A stretch of 64,000 nt of DNA from Brevibacillus agri (GTDB taxonomy: Bacteria > Bacillota > Bacilli > Brevibacillales > Brevibacillaceae). The number at the start of each line of letters is the position of its first letter. Within the stretch, counting starts at the first letter, position 1. Below, in pieces: positions 14,527 through 20,324 of this stretch. Where the stretch lies: positions 1,727,501 through 1,791,500 of the forward strand of contig NZ_CP026363.1 of assembly GCF_004117055.1 (NCBI RefSeq), written 5' to 3'. The notes beneath the pieces were generated by a model that saw nothing but the letters and a program-made list of their open reading frames with translations, did no database searches and was not told where the DNA came from. The position numbers and the translations under genes were made by a program.

Positions 14527-14883
14527 GTGCCGTATAAAGCGTTGCTCGAGTCCCACGTAGGTGGCTGGGAAGTCGCGATTGTGCTGTTGATCGTAGCCTA
14601 CTTCCTGTACCGCGCGGGCAAGGAAAAGGCCGGAAAAATCGTACATATGCTGCTCAGACTCATGATGGTCATCATTCTCGTATCCGGCGCGTGGATGCTG
14701 TTCACCGTCCATGCCAGCGAAGTTTATTTTTACGTGAAAGGCTTGCTCGCGATCATCGCCTTCGGCTTGATCGAAATGTCGCTCGGCCGGGCGAAGAGAC
14801 AGGAAGGCAGCATTGGCTTTTTCATCGGCTGTTTGGTCGTGCTGGTAGTCGTCATCATGCTTGGCTACCGCGTGTTCTCGTAA
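14527..14883 (+). CDS. yisL: YisL family (DUF1516/UPF0344) membrane protein
   Basis: A roughly 118-residue protein with four hydrophobic segments (WEVAIVLLIVAYFLY; IVHMLLRLMMVIILVSGAWMLF; VKGLLAIIAFGLIEM; SIGFFIGCLVVLVVVIMLGY). I recognise it as the YisL/UPF0344 family of small integral membrane proteins of unknown role in Bacillus relatives. A TTG at 14518 is in frame but touches the AAAGGGG site; the GTG at 14527 has the right nine-base spacing and gives MPYKALLESH. It is a single-gene unit with its own promoter and terminator. Confidence 0.85.
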   Translation: MPYKALLESHVGGWEVAIVLLIVAYFLYRAGKEKAGKIVHMLLRLMMVIILVSGAWMLFTVHASEVYFYVKGLLAIIAFGLIEMSLGRAKRQEGSIGFFIGCLVVLVVVIMLGYRVFS

Positions 14884-14904
14884 AAAACAAAACGGATGTT
14901 CGAC

Positions 14905-14949
14905 AAAGCTTTCTCTTGCAGGCGGCGCTTGCGGGGGAAAGCTTTTTTG
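14905..14949 (+). terminator. Terminator after yisL
   Basis: AAAGCTTTC pairs with GGAAAGCTTT and is followed by TTTT. Confidence 0.8.
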
Positions 14950-15242
14950 TTGGCAATGGAAGCTTTAGCAATATCGCAGCTTCAGGAGGCGAACGGCGTT
15001 TTTTGTGGAGAACAGTATGTTTTCAGGGGGAGCGAACTGCTGTCTGTTGACAAAAACATTACAACATTATTGCAACTTTACTTTAACGCCCGGTTTATGG
15101 CAACAACTTAAGAAAATATACTCTTGTTGTTTAATACTGGATTAGATAAGACCAAGGGTATAGATTTTACCTGTCCTCACAATTATTTGGGATCCCAAAG
15201 TCCTATCTGTAAGTGCACAGGTAATTTCATTCAATTCAAATG

Positions 15243-15282
15243 AACTTCAGCTCATGAAATGTTGTTTTCATGAACTGAAGTT
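15243..15282. repeat. Near-perfect 17-bp stem hairpin inside the transposon left end
   Basis: AACTTCAGCTCATGAAA (15243-15259) pairs with TTTCATGAACTGAAGTT (15266-15282) with one G-T pair. No T run follows on either side, so it is not a classical terminator. The 395 bases between the left terminal repeat and the first cargo gene otherwise hold nothing I recognise. Confidence 0.6.
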
Positions 15283-15454
15283 TATAGGATTAATACGAAA
15301 CCTTCGCGCATATCCGACTAAGGATCTCCTCAGACTTCAATTCTTACAGAAACGATACCTGTCGAAAAGCCAAGATATCTGTTAATTTTGAATCCGATCT
15401 CGGAGACATCCCTGTTCTCTTTCTGATCGATTCTCCATTGACGTGCGATTCTAT

Positions 15455-16453
15455 TCAAGGAGTTATTGTAGGATATATTTCTATCACTTGCTGAAAGTTG
15501 GTCGATACATTTTTAAATTTACTATTAACGGCTAAATAATCTGATAACATTTCTTCATTTCTATTGTTCAGCACTAAAACGAAATGCCTAGAGTTTTTCT
15601 TTAAGAGCTTTTTAATCTTATCATTTTTGAATTCGATAATTTTCTTTGTATTCGGTTGTAAAGTTATGTTTTCAGCTAATAATTCTGTTTCTCCTTGATC
15701 ATTAATGTACATTAGGTCAATTTTTGTTTCATAAGAAATTGCGCTTATTTCTAACTTTTGATAATCATCGGTAGTATATGCCATTCCATCTTCAGTCATA
15801 TTGATTTTGATTTTTGAATTATTAGAGTTCAACCATTCTAATACAGGCACATATTTTGTATTTTTGTTTTCAACTATTTTGTGTTTCATTATATCTGCGG
15901 TTGTAAAGTTATATTCTTTATCTTGTGCAATAAATAGCCGAACAATTCCGGCACTTACCCCTGAGTAGTAAGTTCCAATTTTATCTATTATAGGGAATAA
16001 AATCAGTTCTTCTTCTCCATTTCTATCCCAATTAACATAAAATTCTAATACACCCTTTGATTTGTTTGGTATTGGTAATACTGCTGCTGAATACCAAGTA
16101 TCTCCATCAACACTTACATTTAATCGTTTATTTCCTTGTAAAGCTATAATGCTTACATTCGTATCAGTAATATCATTTTCCAAAAAAAGTTGTACCTTAA
16201 TTTTTGTCTTGTTGCCGTTAAGCTTGTAATAAGGATATTTAATCTCGTTCAGTTTAATTACATCGTTATCATCTAATTCAAATCTAAACATAAAGTTGTA
16301 ATTCTCAGTGAGTTTATTAGGTATATTTTGTATTTCCTTTAATGCACTTTTTTCTAAATGCAATACTTGATCTGTTTTTTGGTTACAGGAAATACACAAA
16401 ACACACATAAGAACAATCAACATGGCTAGTCTAGTTTTTACATTAGTAATCAT
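15455..16453 (-). CDS. Unknown AT-rich lipoprotein (transposon cargo)
   Basis: A 332-residue protein. The N-terminus is a lipoprotein signal peptide (IVLMCVLCISC, lipobox Cys at about residue 23). No family is recognised. The mature part is rich in K, N, I and beta-type segments and has no cysteine pairs or catalytic motifs that I can name. AAGGGAGAGA precedes the ATG. Base and codon use are strikingly AT-rich compared with genes outside the transposon, which marks it as acquired. It probably sits on the outer face of the cytoplasmic membrane. Confidence 0.75.
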   Translation of the reverse strand: MITNVKTRLAMLIVLMCVLCISCNQKTDQVLHLEKSALKEIQNIPNKLTENYNFMFRFELDDNDVIKLNEIKYPYYKLNGNKTKIKVQLFLENDITDTNVSIIALQGNKRLNVSVDGDTWYSAAVLPIPNKSKGVLEFYVNWDRNGEEELILFPIIDKIGTYYSGVSAGIVRLFIAQDKEYNFTTADIMKHKIVENKNTKYVPVLEWLNSNNSKIKINMTEDGMAYTTDDYQKLEISAISYETKIDLMYINDQGETELLAENITLQPNTKKIIEFKNDKIKKLLKKNSRHFVLVLNNRNEEMLSDYLAVNSKFKNVSTNFQQVIEIYPTITP

Positions 16454-16600
16454 TATTCTCTCCCTTGTTTATTGAATGTTTTCTTAAACACTTATAAGTC
16501 GATCGTAGTATGTAAAATAATGCCCATCCAGTGTTAAAAAATAAAACGTCAGATTTCAACCGCAATTTGCGTTGAGTTGACGCACTATCGACATTCAATA

Positions 16601-16636
16601 AATATATCAGAGAGAGGAATTTCTCTCTGATATATT
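16601..16636. terminator. Perfect 15-bp hairpin terminator
   Basis: AATATATCAGAGAGA pairs perfectly with TCTCTCTGATATATT around a six-base loop. T or A runs on both sides let it end the minus-strand gene at 16657. Confidence 0.85.
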
Positions 16637-16656
16637 TTTCCTAGCTATTAGTTATG

Positions 16657-17187
16657 TTATAGTTGGTCATCCATGGTGTATACAAGAAAAACTTCACCTG
16701 CATATGCAACAGAGTGCTGAGAAACGCCACGATATGTTTGAGCTAATCCATCAAAGGCATCTGCGTTAGATTTAGCAGTTTGCCCAATTCTAAAATCTTT
16801 CTTTCCAGCATCCTTTTCTACCCATTTCCCCCCTTCGTATTTGAAAATTGATGTAAGTGCTGTCACTGAATACAGTACACTGTCTGGATCTGTAGTTCCC
16901 TCCGAGTAATAGTTGTAAATTAAATTGTCAACCTTTACAGATCCATAGTTAGTTGCTGCAGTGGCCATTGTATCGAAGCTTAGCGTAGAAACTGCCCCAT
17001 CATTCTCAGAAGGTGCTCGTCCAAACTCAACTTGACTAGGAAGTTCATCAACATTGATTGTTTCAACAGCTTCAGCAATACTGATGTCGACAATGTCCTT
17101 GTTTGATTCCGTCGCAAACGAAACCGGGACTCCTAGGGATGCTACTAATGCGAGGCAGGGGATAAATCCAAGAATTTGCTTTTTCAT
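16657..17187 (-). CDS. Unknown secreted protein (transposon cargo)
   Basis: A 176-residue protein with a clear signal peptide (positively charged start, hydrophobic core, likely cleavage near VSFATES). The mature part contains an NYYSEGTTDPDSVLYSVTALTSIF segment and no known domain. AGGGAGAG precedes the ATG, and a perfect terminator follows. It lies between two other AT-rich genes of unknown function in the transposon, on the same strand as the lipoprotein. Confidence 0.75.
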   Translation of the reverse strand: MKKQILGFIPCLALVASLGVPVSFATESNKDIVDISIAEAVETINVDELPSQVEFGRAPSENDGAVSTLSFDTMATAATNYGSVKVDNLIYNYYSEGTTDPDSVLYSVTALTSIFKYEGGKWVEKDAGKKDFRIGQTAKSNADAFDGLAQTYRGVSQHSVAYAGEVFLVYTMDDQL

Positions 17188-17496
17188 TTGTTTCTCTCCC
17201 TTTTCTTGTAATAACTTACATATGTAAAATATATCAACCTAAATTGGATGTAAACGGAAAATTTCGGTTTAAATTGGAAATAAGTATATAGACCCACATA
17301 TTTATGGATTAACTAAAACTTCTAAATCGATAGTTCAATTATTATTTTCCTATTTCCATAAATGGTATATTATGCCATGATTCGACCTCCGATACTAAAT
17401 TATTCTTGGCGCACAGGCAACTGATAATTCTACTGATCACACTTTTAACCTATAACAATCTGAGAAATATTTTAACCGTGTAGATAACTCTCGATA
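17188..17496. other. AT-rich intergenic stretch in the transposon
   Basis: No gene, RNA or clear promoter is recognised in these roughly 300 bases. The sequence is low complexity and AT-rich. Confidence 0.5.
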
Positions 17497-17540
17497 ATAA
17501 AAACCAGCCCCAAAACACTGAAAGTGTTAGGACTGGTCTA
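17497..17540 (-). terminator. Terminator of the 83-residue cargo gene
   Basis: On the minus strand ACCAG/CTGGT and AACACT/AGTGTT form a two-part stem followed by GGTTTTTATT, 60 bases after the stop at 17601. Confidence 0.7.
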
Positions 17541-17600
17541 TGATTATTTTGACAATATTGAGCGAGTAGAAATAGTTTATAGGTTGTGTCTTAAGCAAGA

Positions 17601-17852
17601 TTATTCTTGTTTATTAATTTGGGTTTCTAATTCTAATAACTTTTCTTTTATATGCCTGTCATAGCTGTTTAAAACATTTATGAAAGCACTTAAACTAGCA
17701 TTTATTGCAGCAACGGCTATTATCATATCGTTATCCGCGATTGGAAATTCAGGGTTTTTTTCATTTTTTGCTCTTTTAATAAGTTCCGGTAATGATGAAA
17801 TGACTTTCTGATGCTGAACAGATAATTCCTTTTCGAATGCAAAAGTTTTCAT
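17601..17852 (-). CDS. Unknown 83-residue protein (transposon cargo)
   Basis: A small, charged, mostly helical protein starting MKTFAFEKEL, with no signal peptide or membrane segment. TTAGGAGG stands eight bases before the ATG, which supports real translation. No family is recognised. Its upstream region ends at the broken tnsB gene, so it may be the first gene after a deletion in the transposon core. Confidence 0.7.
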   Translation of the reverse strand: MKTFAFEKELSVQHQKVISSLPELIKRAKNEKNPEFPIADNDMIIAVAAINASLSAFINVLNSYDRHIKEKLLELETQINKQE

Positions 17853-17941
17853 TTGTTAATACCTCCTAACGATTCTTCTATTTTTCTGTATACGTTCCCT
17901 TATGGTGAGAGTTTCATTTGTAAGTACGTTATTCACTTCCT

Positions 17942-18195
17942 CCCCCCTGACCATCTTCGGTGAGACATCGTTTTACCAGCCGCCAGATCTGCGTTCTTTC
18001 TATACCAGTTAAAGCCTCAATCTGTTGCATATCTTTTCATTACTCATTCATGTATAGTTCGACGGCTGTCTTCCTCTTTAGAAGCAGTTCTTTTGCTTCA
18101 CCTTGTAATGCATCTGGGTTTACGGTGGGCCAATTACACAGATTTTTGTTGGAAGAAGCGATGAGGTCACTTTCAGTGATTTTCCTTCTGGACAT
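17942..18195 (-). pseudogene. tnsB: TnsB-like transposase, 5' remnant with stop codons
   Basis: The reading begins MSRRKITESDL, overlapping the end of tnsA by about 22 bases, and continues through PTVNPDALQGEAKELLLKRK, typical of the N-terminus of Tn7-like TnsB. After LYMNE come two consecutive stop codons (TAA TGA). The same frame then continues as QQIEALTGIERTQIWRLVKR, the TnsB DNA-binding helix-turn-helix. The frame is lost near 17945, so the DDE catalytic domain and the rest of the gene are deleted. Confidence 0.78.
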
Positions 18196-19109
18196 ACGGC
18201 CACACTTCCGTATCCAAATCAAAAGGAGTAGAACTTAGATCAGCGTGTATTTGGTTTTCATAAATCAACCGAAACAAGGTCTCATTGATTCTTGATTTTC
18301 CTAAATGCTGAAGACAACGATAGATATCCTGAACTGAGATACGGTTCGCTCCAATAATACTAAACAAGTAGAGATCATCGATTTCTGTCAGGTTTCTCTT
18401 TGGTTGTAGATAGGAAACCATTTGTTTCATATTGGAGAGAAACACAGCATTACCACGGACAGTACGATCTGTTATCACTTTGTGATGATATCCATTCAAT
18501 TCGCACCACAATTTTTGTGCCTCGATCTGACGTTTCGTTCGAAGGTACTTGGAGCTTGTCCCATAGAGTTACTTCTCATACTTAACCTCAAAAAATGACT
18601 CGTTTGTAAATTGCATAGTAAAAGTGCTTAATTTTGCAGCAATTACTTATGCATGTTAAAGTAACTGGGTTTGACATGGAGAGGTGGGTATGATAGGCTT
18701 GTCAGCCGTTACGAATCCTTTGGTAGCGCCCTTCGTAACAAATCATACCCATAGAGGCTCCATGTCAAACCCATGCATAAAAGCTACTTATTGCTGCATA
18801 TTGATAAAAATTATCGCAGCAAAATTCGGCACTTTTCGATTGCCGAACACACTCGTTGCCATTCTTGTAGCGAACCCACATATCCGGAACAGATTTGACA
18901 TGTGAACCATCTACCAGTACAGAAGTTTCTAGTGGTTGCTCACAAAAGTCCACAATATCGGAGTTTGTTTCTACAAGAATCCAGTGGTCGTGTTCAAGAT
19001 CACTAAAAAGCCGGACGTTTCGTCCTATTTTCGGGCCGAATTGCTCCCAATAATTACTTCCATACTTCATGCTCCTCTTCATTAGAACAGGAGTATACAA
19101 TACGATCAC
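18173..19109 (-). pseudogene. tnsA: TnsA-like transposon endonuclease, broken
   Basis: The N-terminal part (GRNVRLFSDLEHDHWILVET, then SVPDMWVRYKNG) and the later FFEVKY segment contain the restriction-endonuclease-fold residues of TnsA (Glu, Asp, Glu/Gln-x-Lys). The C-terminal part (LSNMKQMVSYLQ onward) matches the TnsA winged-helix domain. Two lesions break it: a 217-bp inverted-repeat element at 18620-18836 inserted just before the catalytic FFEVKY motif, and an in-frame TAA directly after VKYEK. TnsA cuts the 5' ends of the transposon in Tn7-like elements. Confidence 0.83.
18620..18836. repeat. 217-bp inverted-repeat (MITE-like) element inside tnsA
   Basis: Outer arms AAAAGTGCTTAATTTTGC (18620-18637) and its inverted counterpart GCAAAATTCGGCACTTTT (18819-18836) differ at two positions. 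Inside are further inverted blocks: TTTGACATGGAG with CTCCATGTCAAA, GGGTATGAT with ATCATACCC, and a central GTTACGAA/TTCGTAAC hairpin. It has no coding capacity. It interrupts the tnsA reading frame, so it is a later insertion; no clear target duplication is seen. Confidence 0.75.
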
Positions 19110-19354
19110 TTTTTTCTTACCAAATTGTTCCTATCGTCATTTAATTACAAATGTTTTCCTATTTCAAGTAATTCTGTTACAAAAGCACTTTCACTGACTA
19201 AGAATTCAAGATAGATGGTTATGTAGGAATGTTTTTGTCAACAGGCAACTGCTCTTTTTGGTCAGAATAGCCGGTGTTAGAAAAGAGGACTGTTTTGGTT
19301 TTGGAGAAATACTCCACTTTTAGAAAATACAATGGCGGATAACTCCATTTTTGA

Positions 19355-19360
19355 TATAAT
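19355..19360 (+). promoter_or_regulatory. Possible -10 element for the MurR/RpiR gene
   Basis: TATAAT within TTGATATAATGG, about 80 bases before the regulator start. No convincing -35 accompanies it. The 133 bases between the transposon end-side tnsA start and the right terminal repeat (19110-19227) contain no gene. Confidence 0.35.
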
Positions 19361-19442
19361 GGCGGTAGAAAGCAAGCTTCGATCCGAAAAATTCGGCAAT
19401 CATACGAACGAGACCGGGCTTATGACCCAAGGGGGGAGCGAC

Positions 19443-20324
19443 ATGGCAGGACACACCGAGGAGCTGTCCAATCCGGGGCTGAAAAACAATACGCTTTTGC
19501 ATATCCAAAGTCTTCTGCCTTCCTTTACGAAATCGGAGCAAAAAGTCGCGAGCATCGTCTTGCAGCAGACAGACAGCGTCATCTACTCATCCGTGATCGA
19601 CCTCGCGGAAAAGGCGGGCGTGGGCGAGACGACCGTGCTGCGCTTTTGCCGGAAGATCGGTTTTCGCGGCTATCAGGAGTTCAAGCTGGCGCTGGCGCAG
19701 GAGCTGGTTGCGCCGGTGAAAAACTTGCACGGCGAAGTAGGCGAGGACGATTCGCTGGAGACGATGGCGCAAAAAGTAACGGCGACGAATCAGCAGGCGA
19801 TTGCCGATACGGCGGCCTTGTTTGATCCGGAGCAGGTGGAGCGCTGCGTGGAGCTGTTGCAACAGGCGGACACGATTCACTTTTACGGAGTGGGAACATC
19901 CGCTGTGACGGCACAGGACGCCAAGTACGCGTTTTTGCGGATCGGACTGCGGGTCGATGCGATGAGCGAGTCGCACCTGCAGGCGATGGCGGCGGCGACA
20001 TTGGGACCGGGAGACGTGGCGGTCGGGCTGTCCGTGTCAGGCAGCACCAAGGACACGATCGACTCGCTGAAAGTCGCCAAGGAAGCCGGCGCGACGATCA
20101 TTTGCATCACGCATTACCGCCGCTCGCCGATTACGAACGTGGCCGATATTACGCTTTTGACCGCCGCACAGGAAGGCCCGCTGCAAGGCGGCTCGCTGGC
20201 GGCGAAAATCGCCCAGTTGCACGTGCTGGACGTCATCTGCACGACGATTGCCTTGCGCAACAAGGAAAAAGCGCTCACGTACAAGGAACGGACGGCCAAG
20301 GCCGTGCTGGAGAGAAAATATTGA
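19443..20324 (+). CDS. MurR/RpiR family transcriptional regulator
   Basis: A 293-residue regulator with an N-terminal RpiR helix-turn-helix (GVGETTVLRFCRKIGFRGYQEF) and a C-terminal SIS sugar-phosphate-binding domain (FYGVGTSAVTAQDAKYAF; GLSVSGSTKDT). AAGGGGGGAG precedes the ATG at 19443; 37 extra in-frame codons upstream lack a good site. It stands 15 bases before nagB, so it probably controls amino-sugar phosphate metabolism in response to a hexosamine phosphate. It lies just outside the transposon. Confidence 0.88.
   Translation: MAGHTEELSNPGLKNNTLLHIQSLLPSFTKSEQKVASIVLQQTDSVIYSSVIDLAEKAGVGETTVLRFCRKIGFRGYQEFKLALAQELVAPVKNLHGEVGEDDSLETMAQKVTATNQQAIADTAALFDPEQVERCVELLQQADTIHFYGVGTSAVTAQDAKYAFLRIGLRVDAMSESHLQAMAAATLGPGDVAVGLSVSGSTKDTIDSLKVAKEAGATIICITHYRRSPITNVADITLLTAAQEGPLQGGSLAAKIAQLHVLDVICTTIALRNKEKALTYKERTAKAVLERKY

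Follow-up and report, generated by a model that had tools for sequence, protein, structure and literature searches.

A decayed Tn7-like transposon away from dif in Brevibacillus agri, probably related to transposons found beside dif

What is the A+T-rich block of 4.2 kb that separates two genes of Brevibacillus agri, can it still move, and to what is it related? The block lies in a stretch of 64,000 nucleotides (assembly GCF_004117055.1, contig NZ_CP026363.1, positions 1,727,501 to 1,791,500), here called the window, whose own numbering is used throughout. A preliminary description, made from the sequence alone, had presented the block as a Tn7-like transposon with intact ends and ruined machinery. 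It is very probably a dead Tn7-like passenger or relic, away from dif and kin to a group of Tn7-like transposons that lie beside dif in the same genus; dif is the site where XerCD separates dimeric chromosomes. Genomes used for comparison carry G numbers and loci L numbers.

An insertion with broken genes and stripped ends

The boundaries of the insertion are marked by four features.

15036..15040: left copy of the target duplication, ACTGC, 5 bp, single in the empty site of G021
15041..15060, plus strand: left tip, terminal inverted repeat TGTCTGTTGACAAAAACATT, 20 bp
19228..19247, minus strand: right tip, terminal inverted repeat TGCCTGTTGACAAAAACATT, in which TGC replaces TGT
19248..19252: right copy of the target duplication, ACTGC, 5 bp

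Window 15041-19247 is a real insertion, because inverted tips, an ACTGC duplication, an empty site and an A+T-rich insert are all found. The tips are identical at 19 of 20 positions, with one mismatch; at three mismatches or fewer they are the only matches in the window, in opposite orientation, and dinucleotide shuffles produced none (0/100). The duplication is perfect on both sides (5/5). When the flanks are joined, they align unbroken through the junction to locus L034 of G021. This relative matches the left flank best (91% over 523 bp); its locus has a piece of 1140 bp holding the junction that is 90% identical to the joined flanks, a single ACTGC, and a short tandem repeat immediately left of the empty site. 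G+C content is 35% in the insert versus 61% and 56% in its two 4-kb flanks. The insertion lies between two genes, one of the DUF1516 (YisL) type and one for an RpiR-type regulator. The site downstream of yisL, the inverted tips, the duplication and the reconstructable empty site all stand as first described.

What remains of the transposition machinery, and of its binding sites, is listed next.

17944..18195, minus strand: tnsB remnant, first ~84 codons, with two adjacent stops and the rest missing
18179..18604, minus strand: tnsA remnant, 3' part, with one in-frame stop
18852..19109, minus strand: tnsA remnant, 5' part, 86 codons, with a Tn7_TnsA-like_N match
15047..15067, plus strand: left-end TnsB-like site, scoring 19.9 against a 95% null of 8.2, the only one in the first 350 bp
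19221..19241, minus strand: TnsB-like site of the right end, score 22.1, the only one in the right 350 bp

Reading inward from the right end, tnsA is followed by tnsB, the order of Tn7, with tnsA split by an insert of 246 bp at 18605-18850. The tnsA remnant scores 26.4 bits against PF08722, or 26.8 with its frame neighbours, around a cut-off of 26.5, and is 49% identical to the TnsA proteins of G012 and G020 over 86 and 80 amino acids (aa). Of TnsB the N terminus alone is left, the DDE catalytic core having gone from the element, and queries with TnsC and TniQ of G020 found no match inside it. The assignment to Tn7-like transposons with ruined machinery, no tnsC or targeting gene having been found inside, is borne out by the remnants with their stops and by the related operons of the genus. 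The host genome gave a single TnsA match, the element's own remnant; across the genus, TnsA relatives occur in 6 of 26 genomes, that of the host included, and in the host genome at one place only.

The claim of intact ends did not survive. Sites were scored with a weight matrix built from 55 sites of 21 other ends, the window ends being left out of training, against a null of 500 shuffles of the left end, 95% of which fell below 8.2. Each window end has one TnsB-like site per 350 bp, versus at least two in 18 of the 21 other ends, a count flattered by those same ends having trained the matrix, as the window ends did not; it becomes 14 of 17 without four short entries (G015, G019 and two from G005) in which 350 bp spans both ends. 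The single-site ends among the 21 belong to G023 (its right end), G019 (one of its ends) and G016. The left tip begins with TGT; the right tip, which begins with TGC, has lost the third base of that motif. Of the ends, therefore, the tips alone survive, and the TnsB-binding repeats sought inside them amount to one site each with no inner sites. One TnsB-like site per end points to a relic rather than a working member. The element is probably unable to move by itself today, and we infer that it is immobile, because the host has no second TnsA match and the ends are stripped.

Relatives in the genus and the dif site

Among the genomes of the genus, G012, G020 and G002 have tnsA, tnsB, tnsC and tniQ together next to a right end whose tip is related; in G023, tnsC is absent and tnsB and tniQ are partly absent. 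Left tips lie near dif in twelve genomes (G001, G002, G004, G005, G006, G010, G012, G013, G016, G020, G022 and G023), at 44-50 bp from GTCCGATAATATATATTATGTAAACT in ten of them, 32 in G006 and 30 in G016. The search for the window's ends elsewhere succeeded here: related tips, TGTCTGTTGACAAAAACATA, with one mismatch to the window tip, stand beside dif in G006 and G010. The preliminary description's comparison with glmS is not the useful one, related ends in the genus being so often beside dif.

We take GTCCGATAATATATATTATGTAAACT to be dif because it resembles the dif sites of Acinetobacter and that of B. subtilis, and because of its position near the middle of assemblies. Its relative position is 0.44-0.52 of the assembly in seven of ten well-assembled genomes (coordinates taken by hand), with outliers at 0.57 in the host, 0.29 in G020 and 0.79 in G011. 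The Acinetobacter sites compared are those quoted in PMC10132070.

By a second matrix, from 13 sites of four right ends only (G020, G002, G012 and G010), the 400 bp behind dif contain TnsB-like sites in 12 of 25 genomes, and the 400 bp before it contain them in none of 25; G010 offers 237 bp behind dif, and the relic tips of G001 and G016 are missed. The first such site starts at +51 to +57 from dif in nine of the twelve, with G006 at +39, G025 at +69 and G011 at +221. The sampled species are related, and some dif-side insertions may be inherited; yet tip types and exact positions differ. The sequence at the insertion point is uninterrupted in G003, G008, G014, G015 and G019. G020 has, between dif and a gene for an Xer-like tyrosine recombinase, an element that carries the full set of four tns genes; the flanks of this element overlap, without an exact 5-bp duplication. 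A homolog of the gene left of this element is found in 17 of 26 genomes (G001, G012 and G022 not among them), often near dif-side tips.

The host's own dif region contains no TnsB-like site by the second matrix, and the window element lies ~1.3 Mb from it. No dif-like sequence was found within 200 bp of the window insertion, the best candidates mismatching dif at 14 of 26 positions on the left and at 12 on the right, with 9-15 in shuffles, made for the left flank only. Some relatives also depart from a strict dif-side rule: the intact operon of G012, the mini-elements described below and a tip cluster of G005 are not beside dif. The G005 cluster (L086:9943-10235) holds three TTGAC-type tips within 300 bp, with no exact duplication.

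A further feature of the left end is shared with related left ends.

15246..15279: palindrome, 34 bp, 14-bp arms and a 6-bp spacer

It matches TTCAGTTCATGAAA-N6-TTTCATGAACTGAA. At three mismatches or fewer, the palindrome occurs in 29 of 398 genomes, 24 of these among the 25 genomes of the genus searched, while a backward control gave 0; 22 of 32 places in the genus are no more than 1.3 kb from dif, and most of the sampled genomes of the genus have a copy near it. The distance from the outermost tip is 246-402 bp in 15 related left ends whose tips are visible, compared with 205 bp in the window, and some tipless copies near dif may be relic left ends. Its geometry is that of a tyrosine-recombinase core site. 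Paired changes in its arms argue for a symmetric site, and our guess is that a recombinase or a regulator binds it. A possible role as an intrinsic terminator was set aside: the hairpin is strong (z -7.6 and -6.8), but neither the window copy nor that of G020 is followed by a T-run.

Several other observations were made around dif. The Xer-like tyrosine recombinase gene beside dif, with the palindrome behind it (L059:18264-19307, L219, L224, L211, L095, L221), is stop-free in G020, G019 and G008 and broken in G014 (4 stops), G003 and G015. Second, divergent dif-like sequences (L201/L220, L192/L216) occur in G019 (4 mismatches) and G014 (5 mismatches), that of G019 with a tip at the usual distance. 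Tandem arrays were seen in which a right tip abuts or lies near the next element's left tip (L060:18066-18067, L061:17851-17856, L058:11957-11966). The dif-side element of G020 has arsenic-resistance-like genes as cargo (L059:9855-12095; named by eye from translations).

For many of these relatives dif may be a landing site, and the position and one-sidedness of the dif-side ends point to a TniQ as the putative agent of homing. Our fuller proposal is tentative, and we would put it at rather less than even: Tn7-like transposons of the genus would possess a dif-homing target selector that fixes their left end 44-50 bp off, the palindrome would serve terminus biology as a site of recombination or binding, and the window element would be an escaped derivative that carried the palindrome to a place 1.3 Mb from dif. 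The combination of TnsABC-TniQ with dif is not described in the accessible parts of PMC10293859, PMC8649781, PMC10132070 and PMC8754128, and none was found in the open-access literature, by which we do not claim its absence from print. The window element as such is ordinary, a further case of a decayed Tn7-like transposon, and the greater interest lies in its relatives. Tn7-like ends clustered on one side of dif at a nearly constant distance would give Tn7-like elements a further landing site, non-coding and widely present in chromosomes, and would open to experiment what TniQ reads: dif itself, the DNA beside it, or XerC/XerD bound there. The dif-side group is the part worth testing.

How the element reached its site

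On the preferred reading, a Tn7-like transposon kin to the dif-side group, and presumably descended from a dif-side ancestor, would have inserted by a staggered cut, giving the 5-bp duplication, with the gap between the DUF1516 and RpiR-type genes as its target. Two tips, the left-end palindrome and a module of three cargo genes are what survives of it today.

A number of findings weigh against this reading. Alignment through the junction of the empty site comes from 1 of the 24 relatives' loci compared; the remaining 23 align beside the junction and neither support nor refute it. The palindrome is not exclusive to transposon ends, being found also behind the Xer-like gene in G008, G014, G019 and G020 (the G019 copy with 4 mismatches). 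The missing inner TnsB-like sites could be a late loss. In the TnsA tree, the window element is not placed with the intact elements of the genus; its nearest sequence, 43% identical and placed without support, is that of G124, from another family. As for helpers, no second TnsA was found in the host, where no host-wide search for TnsB or TnsC was made, and a PF06527 search found no TniQ elsewhere in the host, a search insensitive to this group.

The last negative settles little, because the same PF06527 search missed the TniQ proteins of G020 and G002. It returned matches in 6 of 26 genus genomes, the host not among them, and passed over the TniQ adjoining tnsC in G020 (E 0.006, below cut-off) and in G002 (no match). 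Surveys relying on PF06527 will miss TniQ proteins of this Tn7-like group.

The jump may have come before or after the failure of the machinery. A complete, autonomous element may have landed off-target and then decayed in place as deletions removed tnsC, tniQ, the greater part of tnsB and the inner TnsB sites, an account to which we give an even chance. It agrees with tnsA and the tnsB N terminus still standing in order beside the right end with few stops, and with the right end next to tnsA in G023, which is also single-site. Unconstrained decay, however, should hit the tips and the duplication too, and both are nearly perfect.

Tips at 19/20 and a duplication at 5/5 look fresh beside a ruined interior, and so speak for a different course, possible although we lean against it, in which the element had lost its autonomy before the jump, owed that jump to a related TnsABC acting in trans, and could move again. 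Short derivatives in the genus speak for it as well. G015 contains a mini-element of 151 bp, away from dif, with two outward-facing tips, GTTCA on both sides, and a single TnsB-like site near one tip with a pair near the opposite one. A probable second case is a stretch of 138 bp in G019 with ACATA on both sides and one variant tip, although it lies near palindrome-like sequence and may belong to a larger end; a similar stretch of 179 bp in G005 has no duplication. Among 16 tip pairs scripted from the fetched loci, where overlapping loci were counted more than once, an exact 5-bp duplication was found for two different elements, those of the window and of G015. Mini-elements with a duplication support movement in trans, and suggest that small derivatives were moved in this way to places off dif; they also offer a natural test of the minimum number of TnsB sites for movement. 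Against the same course, 20-bp tips are too short for dating, the right tip begins with TGC, and the host lacks a second TnsA match. The preliminary description's proposal that the window element is movable in trans is therefore kept possible by the mini-elements, and is weakened by the lack of a second TnsA and of any apparent helper.

It is very improbable that the insertion is instead a dif-hunting insertion sequence of IS1202 type, with TnsB only and not Tn7-like. Its end structure and duplication length agree with IS1202 elements near dif, as these are described in PMC10132070; the TnsA remnant with its Tn7_TnsA-like_N match beside tnsB in Tn7 order, and the relatives with tnsA, tnsB, tnsC and tniQ, argue against it. 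Chance, with unrelated repeats misread as a transposon, has a negligible probability, no supporting point having been found for it, and the shuffles (0/100), the empty site and the remnant genes opposing it.

Cargo, wider matches and known systems

The interior of the element, beyond the tns remnants, has five features.

15455..16453, minus strand: cargo ORF3, 332 aa, resembling a lipoprotein by eye, with homologs in 4 genomes of 398 besides the host
16657..17187, minus strand: cargo ORF2, 176 aa, its N terminus resembling a signal peptide by eye, with homologs in 3 genomes of 398 besides the host
17601..17852, minus strand: cargo ORF1, 83 aa, a weak homolog adjoining the ORF2-ORF3 pair in G002
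18605..18850: insert in tnsA, 246 bp, imperfect inverted repeats, ACTCGTT at both edges, a structured core of ~105 nt
19094..19189, minus strand: stretch around and upstream of the tnsA start, ~95 bp, resembling the region upstream of a quinone-oxidoreductase-like gene (G003, G010, G023)

The open reading frames (ORFs) of the cargo gave no Pfam or NCBIfam match above cut-off. In G002, homologs of ORF2 and ORF3 are neighbours. With them stand a gene resembling ORF1 (27% over 73 aa, E 2e-6) and, in divergent orientation, one that by eye is helix-turn-helix regulator-like. An ORF2-like gene in G188 and G257 adjoins a lipoprotein-like gene and a divergent TPR-like gene (names by eye). Two plasmid records, from Paenibacillus and Priestia, contain ORF3-like frames (26-27%); no ORF2-like frame was found in plasmid records. 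The AlphaFold models, with a mean pLDDT of 41 for ORF3 and 37 for ORF2, were not used for fold search. Together the cargo would be a module of secreted protein and lipoprotein under signalling control.

The ~105-nt core of the tnsA insert recurs elsewhere in the host genome, its family and related genera (L002, L003, L005 and others); its consensus fold has 23 pairs, 6 of them changed on both sides, among 14 copies that are not all distinct. A Heyndrickxia plasmid has a stretch similar to the insert. The region at 19094-19189 occupies the position of inner TnsB sites in relatives. Its local scores were 58-65 against the quinone-oxidoreductase-like upstream regions (L099, L100, L101), at most 29 in shuffles of these (500 each), and 16-20 when the sequence preceding tnsA was taken from seven other loci instead.

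No close full-length relative of the window element was found among the 398 genomes. TnsA matches occur in 18 of them, the host's own included, the best being those of G124 (55% over 88 aa) and G098 (62% over 60 aa); a match in Lysinibacillus reaches 49%. No tips of this kind were recognised in the fetched stretches of Lysinibacillus, Pseudalkalibacillus and G124, and the exact tip had 0 occurrences in IMG/VR. Plasmids gave 11 records with TnsA, the best-ranked at 43% over 73% of the query, and phages none. A search of 14800-19500 against Rfam returned one match, below the gathering score, which was ignored. In Lysinibacillus cavernae (L025:10001-20071), a tnsA-tnsB-tnsC-tniQ-like set is followed by four further genes that resemble a QatABCD defence system.

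With Tn7 and Tn7-like transposons, which encode TnsA, TnsB, TnsC and TniQ/TnsD, the window element shares a 5-bp duplication, a TGT left tip, tnsA and tnsB running inward from the right end, and related operons in the genus. It differs in its broken tnsA and tnsB, in having no tnsC or tniQ found inside, in its TGC right tip, in the one TnsB-like site per end and in its place away from a homing site. The IS1202 family of Acinetobacter, whose members target dif/pdif, is similar in its TGT/ACA ends, 5-bp duplication, TnsB-like transposase and dif association, and differs in having a single transposase gene without further Tn7 proteins and in lying 5 bp from the XerC half-site, according to PMC10132070. 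The G015 mini-element, like the window element, has two such tips and a 5-bp duplication off dif; unlike it, it is too short for tns genes and has three TnsB-like sites. Whereas the left tips of the dif-side Tn7-like group stand 30-50 bp from dif and that of the window element does not, the two share the same kind of tips and the left-end palindrome.

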